NCBI RefSeq assembly: GCF_020991365.1 | Contig: NZ_JAJLRA010000037.1 | Span: 1-42,522 of the forward strand | Direction of reading: 5' to 3' | DNA: 42,522 bases | Source of the DNA: Streptacidiphilus sp. ASG 303 | Lineage (GTDB): Bacteria; Actinomycetota; Actinomycetes; Streptomycetales; Streptomycetaceae | In this document: positions 15,880-40,899 of the stretch, piece by piece | How positions within the stretch are numbered: position 1 is the stretch's first letter | How the letters are laid out: each line of letters starts with the position of its first letter | The notes under the pieces: generated by a model | Database searches by the model: none | What the model was told of the DNA's origin: nothing | Seen by the model: the letters and a program-made list of their open reading frames with translations, nothing else | Program-made: the position numbers and the translations under genes

Positions 15880-16190
15880 CGAGAACGGCCACGACGCCGA
15901 GGCCGGCACGGCAACGGGACACGGGGATGCCGGCGCGTACCGCACCGGCCGGGCCCGATTCCCGGCAGACGGTGCCGTCGCGGCGGGCTCCGGGGAGAGG
16001 CACTCCGACGGCCGGGAGCCGGCCGCGGAGGTCGGCGGCGCGCCGGGAGGTGCGGCCGGTACTGCGGTGGCACGGCAACGGCCCCTCGCTCGCAGCCACG
16101 GCCGGTGGAGGAACCCCCGGGCGCTACCGGCAGGGACCGTCGCCACCCCTGCCGCGAGCCGCCACGCGAGCGTTCCGAACCACCCTCCTG
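15880..16190 (-). mobile_element. Decayed, internally deleted IS5-type element
   Basis: The outer end at 16190 (minus strand CAGGAGGGTGGTTCGGAACG) and the next ~120 bases follow the left end of the complete IS at 40004-40899, including CCTGCCGGTAGCG and CTGCGAGCGAGGGGCCGT. The sequence then jumps to an internal part of the same transposase: AADLRGRLPAVGVPLPGARRD is aligned with AADLRGRLLAVGRPLPGARHD of the complete copy. So about 350 bases were deleted, and the rest is diverged. The inner limit is approximate. Confidence 0.7.
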
Positions 16191-38010: not shown

Positions 38011-38397
38011 CGGGACCACGCGGTCCGGTCCACAGGGCACCCCTGGTGCGGTGAATCGGACCTCGACGAGACCTGTCGGGGGTCGGGGCCCGGCGGGACA
38101 GTGCAGCGGCAGCCGGCGGGCCGCCGCCGAGGGAGCGGCAGGGACCGGGACCGGCTGCCCGGCACGTGGCAGGCCCCGGTCCGGAGCCCTTCCTCCGTCC
38201 TTCGCACGGGGCAGTGGCGGAAGCGACGGAATGTGCGGACCCGCGGCCCCGAGGACGCGGGATGAGGCATGCCCGGGGAATGCGGCGGGCGCCGGCGGGC
38301 AGTGTCCTCGGGTGTCCCGGCCGGCCGGAGCCCCGGCCGACCACGGAATCAGCCTGTTCCGGGAGGGGGCAGGGACGGGATCACAGCGGGAGGAGCG

Positions 38398-38622
38398 CAG
38401 GGCCCGGGGCCGGCCGCGTCGGCGGTGGAAGGACGGAACGGTGCGGCCGGCCAGGTCCGCCACCCTCTCCGACTGCCGTCGGTCCAGTCCGGTCCTGCGG
38501 TGGTACGGCGACGGCCCCTCGCTCGGAGCATCCGTTGGTGCAGGAACCCCGAACGCTACCGGCAGGAGCCGTTGTCGCACCCACCGTGAGCCACCACACG
38601 ACCGTTCTGAACAACCTTCCAG
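38398..38622 (-). mobile_element. Truncated IS copy, left end only
   Basis: Read on the minus strand from 38622, the sequence starts CTGGAAGGTTGTTCAGAACGG and follows the first ~225 bases of the IS at 40004-40899 with few differences, then breaks off at 38398. It keeps the better-preserved left terminal repeat of the family. Orientation is opposite to the complete copy, with the terminal repeats of both facing the transaldolase-like gene. Confidence 0.85.
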
Positions 38623-38863
38623 ATGTCCGTCAAAGAGGATCAGGCCCACCATCGCGTCCCCCGAGTACGGAGCTCCTCGACGACGGCCTCGTCCACCAGT
38701 GTCCTCACGTACTACCCTCTTGCCGCGTCACCCGTTCAACCCGTCAACTCAACCACTCACCGGTCAACTGAAGCACTCCGCCACATGACATCACGAGTTC
38801 AGCCTGGGCAGTAAGCGCAGATAGGATTACTCCGGCAGCCGGAGGAGGACCACAGGAGCACGT

Positions 38864-40000
38864 ATGAACAGAGATGCATGGCCGATCCCCACGTCGGCCG
38901 GCAAGATTCCCGGCCTCTGGCTGGATGATATGACCTGGGACCGGGTCTGCTCCGGTGACCTTGCCGCTCTGGCCGCCGAGGGTGAGGTCGCTGGAGTTAC
39001 GATAGGCCCTGCCTTCTTCGAGAGCCCCGAAATTCGTGAAGCACCCGCAGCCGGATGCACTCGTTATGCCCGTTCTATTGCGTTGTCCGGAGAGTCGGCA
39101 CTTGACCCGCAGGCGGTCTTCGCCGCTCTGATCCGGAGCGTCGGAGAGACGTGCCGTGTGCTGCGACCGCTATTCGAAGCGACCACAGGCCGGGACGGTT
39201 GGGTATGCCTCCCTGCCGTTCCGGATGACGAGAGCACACCGGAGGCGCTTCTCCAGGAGGTGCGGCGGCTGCACAGAAGCGTGGGCGAGCCCAACCTTTG
39301 CGTGGGTCTGCCGGCCACCCTGCCAGGGCTCCAGGCAATGGAGTCCGCGACCGCCGAAGGCATCACAACCAAAGTAGGCCCGATTTTCGACGCTGCACGC
39401 TACCGAGGGGCTGTCTACATGTACCTGGCGGGCGTTCGCCAGGCACAGAAGCGGAAGGTCGATCTTTCCACCATGCACCCGGTGGCAACCCTCTCCCTGG
39501 GGGCATTCGGCGCAGCGGTGGACGCTCGGCTGTATGCCATTGGTACTCCTGCGGCCTTGGAGCTAATCGGGCGGGCAGGTCTTGCTGGCGCACGCATGGC
39601 CTGCGCCGTCTTCCGCTCGCAGTTCGGCACTGGAGGTTCTCGGACCTTCCCGGATTCCCGTGCCAACCCTCTGCGCCCGCTCTGGGACTTCTCTGCGCCC
39701 GACCGCTCTTCCCTCGGGAGTGAGACGGGCCGTCCAATGGACTTCACCACGTCCATCACGTTCAGCAGGCGGTCCAGTTGGCAGGCGGGCAGCTCTTCCA
39801 CCTGGGCGAGTACAGATCCGCTTGTCGACCCTGCAGACGATGCCGATAGCCCGCAGGAGGTCTTCCGGAGGATCTCCACCCTCGGCATCAGCCTCAGTGA
39901 GGTCGTGGCCGCGCTGGAGGCTGCCGTCCTGCAGGCCCGCCATGCGTCATGGGAAGCCCTCCTGCACTCGGTCGAGCGAGCATTCGAGGCAGGGCGGTAG
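38864..40000 (+). CDS. Transaldolase homologue lacking catalytic residues
   Basis: A 378-residue protein that follows actinobacterial transaldolase end to end: LWLDDMTWDRVCSGDLAALA at the start, GVTIGPAFF, NLCVGLPATLPGLQAMESA, YMYLAGVRQAQ, FGAAVDARLYAIGTPAAL, and ASWEALLHSVERAF at the end. The Schiff-base lysine of NLMVKIPAT is glycine (G148). The TSNP asparagine is glycine (G48), the conserved EV glutamate is proline (P117), and NVTLIF reads KVGPIF (K170). Asp22 is kept. It therefore cannot run the normal reaction, unless K170 substitutes. The frame is intact. Codon use is less GC-biased than neighbours (for example ATA codons), and it lies between two inverted IS copies, which suggests transfer. 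GGAGGAG-type site precedes the ATG. Confidence 0.8.
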   Translation: MNRDAWPIPTSAGKIPGLWLDDMTWDRVCSGDLAALAAEGEVAGVTIGPAFFESPEIREAPAAGCTRYARSIALSGESALDPQAVFAALIRSVGETCRVLRPLFEATTGRDGWVCLPAVPDDESTPEALLQEVRRLHRSVGEPNLCVGLPATLPGLQAMESATAEGITTKVGPIFDAARYRGAVYMYLAGVRQAQKRKVDLSTMHPVATLSLGAFGAAVDARLYAIGTPAALELIGRAGLAGARMACAVFRSQFGTGGSRTFPDSRANPLRPLWDFSAPDRSSLGSETGRPMDFTTSITFSRRSSWQAGSSSTWASTDPLVDPADDADSPQEVFRRISTLGISLSEVVAALEAAVLQARHASWEALLHSVERAFEAGR

Positions 40001-40003
40001 GCC

Positions 40004-40899
40004 CTGAGGATCGTTCAGAACGGTCGCGTGGTGGCTCACGGTGGGTGCTACAACGGCTCCTGCCGGTAGCGTTCGGGGTTCCTGCACCAACGGACGCTGC
40101 GAGCGAGGGGCCGTCGCCGTACCACCGCAGGACCGGACTGGACCGACGGCAGTTGGAGAGGCTGGTGGACCTGGCCGGCCGCGCCGTTCCGGCCTTCCAC
40201 CGCCGACGCGGCCGGCCCCGGGCCCTGCCGCTGGCCGATGCGGTCACGCCGGTGCTGTTCGTCCTGCGCAACAACGCCACCCAGCAGCTCGCCGGTGAGC
40301 TCTGGGGCGTCTCACAGGCCACGGTCGCCCGCCTGTGCCGCACCCTGAAACCCGTGATCGCCGCCGTTCTGGACCAGGCCACCCCTGCGGCCCGGCGCAT
40401 CTGCCGCGGGACACTCGTCCTGGTCGACGGCACCCTCACCCCGAGCTGGGCCTGGAAGAACACCTCCGGCATGAACTCCGGCAAGCACCTCCGGACCGGC
40501 CACAACATGCAGCTCGCCGCCGACCTGCGCGGCCGGCTCCTGGCCGTCGGCCGGCCCCTGCCCGGAGCCCGCCACGACAGCACCGCCTACCGGGAATCGG
40601 GTCTGGCCGGCGCGATACGCACCGGCATCCCCGTCGCCGACCTGGGCTACCCGGGCACCGACTGCCGCATCCCGCACCGCAAGCCCCGCCACCGCCCGCT
40701 GACCGATGCCGAGCAGAACGCCAACCGCCACCACGCCCGCCTGCGCAGCCCCGTCGAACGCGCCGTGGCCCACCTCAAGACCTGGAAGATTCTCTCCACG
40801 CCCTACCGAGGACCGCTCGACCGCTTCGGCACCGTCCTCGCGGCGGTCGCGGCACTGGAGATCCACCGATCACGAGGGCCGTTCTGAACAACCTTCCAG
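40004..40899 (+). mobile_element. Complete IS5-type insertion sequence
   Basis: About 896 bp. Right end (minus strand) CTGGAAGGTTGTTCAGAACGG and left end CTGAGGATCGTTCAGAACGG form terminal inverted repeats, best over GTTCAGAACGG (40013-40023 and 40879-40889). It encodes one transposase. The left repeat is diverged outside the core, and no target duplication is obvious. Related relics lie at 15880-16190 and 38398-38622. Confidence 0.8.
40045..40887 (+). CDS. IS5-family DDE transposase
   Basis: A 280-residue transposase. A helix-turn-helix region (TQQLAGELWGVSQATVARLC, residues ~79-98) precedes the DDE_4-type catalytic core. The acidic triad is D128 in TLVLVDGTLTPS, D178 in PGARHDSTAYRES and E239 in SPVERAVAHLKTWKIL. 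The GTG at 40045 is the first start inside the element; the frame is open further left, into the upstream gene. The protein is full length without frameshifts, so the element may be active if both ends work. It lies four bases downstream of the transaldolase-like gene, in the same direction. Confidence 0.87.
   Translation: MLQRLLPVAFGVPAPTDAASEGPSPYHRRTGLDRRQLERLVDLAGRAVPAFHRRRGRPRALPLADAVTPVLFVLRNNATQQLAGELWGVSQATVARLCRTLKPVIAAVLDQATPAARRICRGTLVLVDGTLTPSWAWKNTSGMNSGKHLRTGHNMQLAADLRGRLLAVGRPLPGARHDSTAYRESGLAGAIRTGIPVADLGYPGTDCRIPHRKPRHRPLTDAEQNANRHHARLRSPVERAVAHLKTWKILSTPYRGPLDRFGTVLAAVAALEIHRSRGPF

Follow-up and report, generated by a model that had tools for sequence, protein, structure and literature searches.

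The window, i.e. the whole stretch of 42,522 nucleotides from Streptacidiphilus sp. ASG 303 that was analysed, contains an open reading frame for a transaldolase-fold protein (ORF 38864–40000). It runs on the forward strand from ATG to TAG over 378 codons with zero internal stops. The features at the locus are the following.

38397–38619, reverse strand: IS-end fragment of 223 nt, inverted, 95% complementary to 40006–40228.
38854–38858, forward strand: AGGAG, Shine-Dalgarno-like, 5 nt 5′ of the ATG, read by eye.
38864–40000, forward strand: transaldolase-fold ORF of 378 aa without the Schiff-base Lys and six other active-site residues.
39005–39007, forward strand: codon 48, canonical Asn replaced by Gly in the alignment to 3r5e and canonical rows.
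39212–39214, forward strand: codon 117, canonical Glu replaced by Pro in the same alignment.
39305–39307, forward strand: codon 148, Schiff-base Lys replaced by Gly in the same alignment.
39371–39373, forward strand: codon 170, canonical Asn replaced by Lys, a candidate ‘moved’ lysine on predicted strand 5, from the alignments and the model.
39689–39838, forward strand: codons 276–325, unalignable, of low confidence and with unusual codon phase, from the alignment, the phase scan and the model.
40006–40897, forward strand: IS5-family element that starts 5 nt past the stop codon, its extent common to another copy in the genome (95%).

The 1,386 bp between the inverted IS5-family copies contain this ORF alone. 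Fragments of the same element were seen at 15921–16187 (80–83% identical) and 38397–38612 (96%), and the IS5-family fragments are signs of repeated insertion in the contig. A two-component pair of a response regulator and a histidine kinase lies upstream. Past the IS element, a cupin and an NAD(P)-binding protein are encoded on the opposite strand. A role in specialised metabolism, which an earlier note on this DNA had brought up, is not suggested by these nearest neighbours, beyond which the window was covered by gene calling. No conserved neighbourhood, operon, partner or clade was found for the ORF, and a promoter scan for it found none. The 2-kb blocks between 38001 and 42000 have a GC content of 0.675–0.678 compared to 0.70–0.77 in the rest of the window. 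A gene caller adjusted to the codon-position GC of Streptomyces left the ORF unpicked.

The protein matched PF00923 (TAL_FSA) with 51.3 bits at a gathering cut-off of 27 (E 1.4e-13). The matches to TIGR00876 and NF002881 reached 122.7 and 173.3 bits and were below the curated cut-offs of 233.75 and 367, respectively. The structure 3r5e from C. glutamicum could be aligned to residues 17–372 with an E-value of 1.1e-42. An AlphaFold2 model built from a six-sequence input had a mean pLDDT of 71.5 and a pTM of 0.75, with predicted strands at residues 18–21, 42–46, 113–117, 145–149, 169–174, 207–210, 271–276 and 298–300. The best solved structure for this model was also 3r5e (Foldseek E 1e-19; Z 38.5, rmsd 2.6 across 344 residues), and the protein is predicted to adopt the (β/α)8 fold of transaldolases. 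The strand 8 region was poorly modelled, with a pLDDT below 50 in the segments 277–296, 308–319 and 321–325. That the whole fold pattern is kept, as had been claimed, holds for residues ~18–275 and ~327–372 but not for 276–325, which are unalignable and mostly below a pLDDT of 50. The actinobacterial-type transaldolases (TIGR00876/NF002881; 3r5e) are similar to the protein in length and fold, with ~28–36% identity along nearly the entire chain, and have the landmarks WLDD, G-P, PN, PAT, EGI and RPLW in common with it. It differs from them by its scores under the curated cut-offs and by the lack of the Schiff-base Lys, the Glu, Asn and Thr and the phosphate Arg.

Alignment to 3r5e and 45 canonical rows confirmed the four substitutions that had been named before, as the canonical N, E, K and N correspond to G48, P117, G148 and K170. 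The list was incomplete, though; T172G, S209T, R214A and the change of AST to DFS at 275–277 had been omitted. A lysine at the catalytic position of strand 4 after all was excluded, the motif PN..[IV]-x-[IL]PAT that flanks G148 being unambiguous. Of eight active-site positions, seven are changed (N48G, E117P, K148G, N170K, T172G, S209T, R214A) and only D21 is kept, i.e. one out of the seven pocket residues D, N, E, N, T, S and R besides the lysine. The choice of these positions and the roles of their residues are assumptions that partly follow E. coli TalB, whose mutants D17A, N35A, E96A, T156A and S176A occur as PDB titles. We take E117 and T172 to be the residues that handle protons and water, and S209 and R214 to be the phosphate clamp. 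With Lys148, E117, T172, S209 and R214 gone, no transaldolase chemistry is expected and the active site is very likely dead.

Columns with at least 97% identity across the 45 canonical rows were regarded as near-invariant, and 64 of the 153 such columns are kept by the ORF. The active site retained 1/8 of its positions compared to 63/145 of the other near-invariant ones (p 0.14) and 55/109 of those in residues 18–275 (p 0.06). A stronger loss in the active site is therefore suggestive, but not significant. At the end of strand 6 (columns 206–218), two of 12 near-invariant positions are kept, and at the end of strand 7 (275–281) none of seven.

The gene had been described as intact, which the reading frame bears out over its 378 aa: neither a stop nor a supported frame change was found, the marks by which a decayed pseudogene would be recognised. 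A frameshift-aware alignment introduced zero frame changes at a penalty of 10 or more and gained 1.7 points at a penalty of 8. Residues 276–325 have no convincing alignment in any frame. Between ~39660 and ~39840, another frame is weakly preferred; the other phase was favoured in eight of 68 overlapping scan windows, five of which fall in this region, with a maximum of +5.9 log units. A compensated double frameshift at codons ~276–318 was suspected from the codon-position GC and gained no support from the frameshift-aware alignment or from homology in other frames. A compensated frameshift is possible, given the residual phase signal.

Relatives were searched for in genome samples of the family, the class and the phylum, which overlap and in which the best four candidates per genome were scored. 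The best non-self match in 394 family genomes had 152.5 bits and 33% identity (self 834 bits). It had 163.2 bits in 394 class genomes, with 30–36% identity among the matches listed (E ≤1e-42), and in 396 phylum genomes only the ORF itself passed 1e-47. Among the matches listed, the best ones in other genomes (152–163 bits) are ordinary transaldolases. On plasmids, 63 records matched with at most 35.8% identity among the matches listed, and one phage record matched with 33.3%. Viral contigs held no relative by alignment and none by pattern. Exact 8-residue patterns matched 39 stretches across the genome contigs, none of them a relative. The one other match in the same genome is a canonical transaldolase (G000:C178) with 30% identity. 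Support for a new function had been expected from a clade that has these substitutions in common and is under purifying selection, but no such clade was found in these family, class and phylum genomes. In the literature on transaldolase pseudoenzymes, no Lys-less transaldolase was found by title or abstract start. The low GC, the IS copies and the lack of relatives suggest a foreign origin, and the ORF is probably foreign.

Streptomycetaceae contain a divergent second transaldolase clade (L005, L036, L041–L043, L045–L048, L050–L052, L059, L060, L066 and L069). Its active site is eroded as well, with N→H in most members, E→D, and K→R in L036, L041 and L047, and it has some residues in common with the ORF, e.g. 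F210L and S213G. In contrast to the ORF, the Lys is kept in 13 of 16 tree rows of this clade. Its members are 41–62% identical to L036, whereas L036 and L005 are only 28–29% identical to the ORF. L043 shares eight of 19 derived states with the ORF at a nominal p of 0.013 that is uncorrected for the many rows compared.

The tree was calculated after three duplicate rows had been removed. The ORF is a long branch in it, with 4.4 changes per column, or 4.08 when the seven active-site columns that are changed in it are removed. Joined with the second clade, it obtained a p-AU of about 0.47. The first tree set it apart from a Lys-less Streptomyces clade that is described below. A tree that held it together with L035 and L037 of that clade had a lnL 2.55 higher with all columns (p-AU 0.57); when those seven columns were removed, its lnL was 4.35 lower (p-AU 0.40). 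Neither the second clade nor the Lys-less one was rejected as a place for the ORF by these tests. The median pairwise score to the ORF was 157.5 bits for the ordinary transaldolases of other actinobacterial families (11 rows) and 146.35 for the housekeeping ones of Streptomycetaceae (44 rows), and the group profiles scored 201.3 for the class, 187.5 for the second clade, 180.3 for the housekeeping group and 148.7 for the Lys-less three; both kinds of score are biased, as the rows of the class and many of the housekeeping ones were fetched for their high score against the ORF.

In 84,980 species genomes, transaldolases lacking Lys at 148 were sought with a pattern in which this codon does not start with A. 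The pattern depends on the landmarks PN, PAT and GI and is blind to replacements by Met, Ile, Thr, Asn, Ser-AGY and Arg-AGR. The Lys form of the pattern recovered 31 of 34 loci that were chosen for a high score, the ORF, which cannot match, being among the 34. Besides the ORF, six loci were found (L035–L040). S. marokkonensis L035 and S. speibonae L037 show K→G, N→G, E→G and N→D, and S. turgidiscabies L036 shows K→R. The remaining ones belong to the transaldolase family and have the Schiff-base lysine replaced by Glu (K→E); they come from Diaminobutyricibacter (L038) and from two records of Sedimenticola hydrogenitrophicus (L039, L040). Later, L041 and L047 (K→R) and L090 (K→G) were added. None of the Lys-less loci has all four changes of G48, P117, G148 and K170, and the six from the pattern share at most two of them (K→G and N→G in L035 and L037). 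A reading of the Lys motif was obtained for 36 of 41 loci, with 35 K and one G; five were unread.

L035 (6085–7230, reverse strand), L037 and L090 form a Streptomyces clade with an SH-aLRT of 99. All of them show K→G, E→G and N→D, and two of the three N→G. The dN/dS values inside this clade were 0.50, 0.55 and 0.66, with 229 codons compared for the partly masked L037. The median was 0.20 (range 0.10–0.44) for 382 pairs with a dS of 0.1–0.5 among 29 other rows, which are counted as Lys-bearing because they are all but the Lys-less three, L102 and L105 being without a motif read. In this clade, the loss of the lysine goes along with relaxed constraint and the frame is still open. The ORF is similar to it in K→G (all three members), N→G (two) and the open frames. 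In contrast to the ORF, L035 shares up to 84% identity with its Lys-bearing sisters, and residue 170 is D in this clade instead of K.

The GC content of the ORF is 0.675, 0.574 and 0.714 at the three codon positions. This third-position value is lower than in the Streptomycetaceae rows (0.844–0.995), which is not in itself a sign of decay because working transaldolases of other lineages have low values, too (0.65–0.77 in L038–L040 and 0.67 in L072). Neutral decay was simulated with simple substitution models without indels. Starting from the genome's own transaldolase, the same divergence resulted in 0.64, 0.57 and 0.74 at an equilibrium GC of 0.66, and the ORF is close to this expectation. 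These runs accumulated five to eight stops on average and were stop-free in 2/540 and 0/320 cases and in 0/295 matched ones. A two-phase decay from other actinobacterial transaldolases was stop-free in 1/132 runs after about 475 substitutions.

Hydrophobic positions are kept above the neutral level with z values of 3.0–3.9 for a start from the own transaldolase and of 1.9–2.1 for the other actinobacterial starts, where 6/132 runs equalled the ORF. Third positions are more diverged than first and second ones, with an excess of 0.11–0.18 compared to −0.03 to −0.02 in matched runs; this excess was reached by 20/132 runs that started from other actinobacterial transaldolases. As neutral decay alone rarely leaves the frame open, the protein was probably under selection through much of its history, by which the loss of the lysine is not dated. 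The selection signal may predate this loss. As the sampled genomes yielded no orthologue for a dN/dS ratio, selection may or may not have acted on the Lys-less state.

With somewhat better than even confidence, we read the ORF as a catalytically dead and weakly constrained orphan of the transaldolase fold, i.e. a pseudoenzyme. It would go back to a spare or foreign transaldolase gene that has long been diverging while weak selection preserved an intact, foldable barrel. The barrel could still be made, but a canonical Schiff base would be impossible without a Lys at 148, the presumed proton and water residues (E117, T172) and phosphate clamp (S209, R214) are lost and the strand ends around the pocket are rebuilt. 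The protein would at most bind something or be a bystander, its gene now alone between the inverted IS5-family copies, with a normal transaldolase kept elsewhere in the genome. The loss of activity, the weak selection at the level of the fold and the foreign origin are all what we infer from the comparisons above. K170 counts against a dead barrel insofar as it may leave room for another chemistry. The model places it on strand 5 beside the old lysine strand, where it replaces the canonical pocket Asn. It might form the Schiff base there and turn the protein into a repurposed class I aldolase, whose rebuilt pocket would act in the manner of an aldolase on a substrate without phosphate. A precedent between families is given in an excerpt of PMC3962226, according to which the lysines of transaldolase and of DHAP-dependent class I aldolases are located on different strands. 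However, the acid/base and phosphate-binding residues are lost together with the old lysine and none of the 66 other alignment rows has a K at position 170, and we regard such a relocation as highly improbable.

A decaying pseudogene deserves more weight than the relocated lysine, although we still think it unlikely. An acquired or duplicated transaldolase gene would have been disabled and would be drifting, its frame open by chance. This is in line with the near-neutral composition, the loss of seven out of eight active-site residues, the odd codon phase and missing homology of 276–325, the gene caller's omission, the IS copies on both sides, the lack of an orthologue in the sampled genomes and the relaxed dN/dS of the comparable Lys-less Streptomyces clade. 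However, zero stops were seen where four to eight are expected on average over all starts, with very few stop-free runs, and hydrophobic positions are retained above the neutral level. The frame is also kept from end to end despite the ~475 neutral substitutions needed, which would normally bring many frame-breaking indels. Less likely than decay, and in our view doubtful, is a neofunctionalised non-catalytic protein, whose barrel would bind a metabolite or a partner like other dead proteins of aldolase fold. The retained frame and core, the many structural Gly, Pro and Trp invariants that are kept while pocket positions changed, and the largely intact predicted fold would fit to it. A precedent is adducin with its class II aldolase domain, which is described as an actin-binding domain (PMC12599920). 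It is likewise an aldolase fold best known for partner binding, but the aldolase class (II) is a different one and the partner of this animal protein is known. For the ORF, no clade, partner, operon or conserved neighbourhood was found, which speaks against this function.

In principle, it is known that core enzymes can have dead copies. The part of the earlier interpretation that stands is the full-length, stop-free homologue without the Schiff-base Lys; the new function is unproven, and none of the homologues found in the sampled genomes shares all four substitutions. If the barrel has kept a function, the ORF would be a new pseudoenzyme. If not, it suggests together with the three-genome Streptomyces clade that transaldolases in GC-rich genomes can be deprived of the catalytic lysine while their frame remains open, so that such a frame argues only weakly for a new function once the active site is lost. 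A true relocation to Lys170 would be a natural move of a catalytic residue from strand to strand within the transaldolase family. At present, the ORF looks like a mildly unusual oddity and not yet like a new kind of protein.

The Streptomyces clade of L035, L037 and L090 is a cleaner test case for a pseudo-transaldolase than the ORF. While the ORF is neighboured by IS5, cupin and NAD(P)-binding genes, zwf is found beside L035 and L090 and opcA beside L035. Downstream of L035, G6PD, OpcA, a protein similar to 6PGD and a histidine phosphatase are encoded. This run is comparable to tkt2-tal2-zwf2-opcA2-pgl of S. avermitilis, described as a likely transcription unit in an extract of PMC6034001. 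The G6PD motif (zwf) also adjoins the Lys-bearing sisters L088 and L089, and L037 lies near a contig end.
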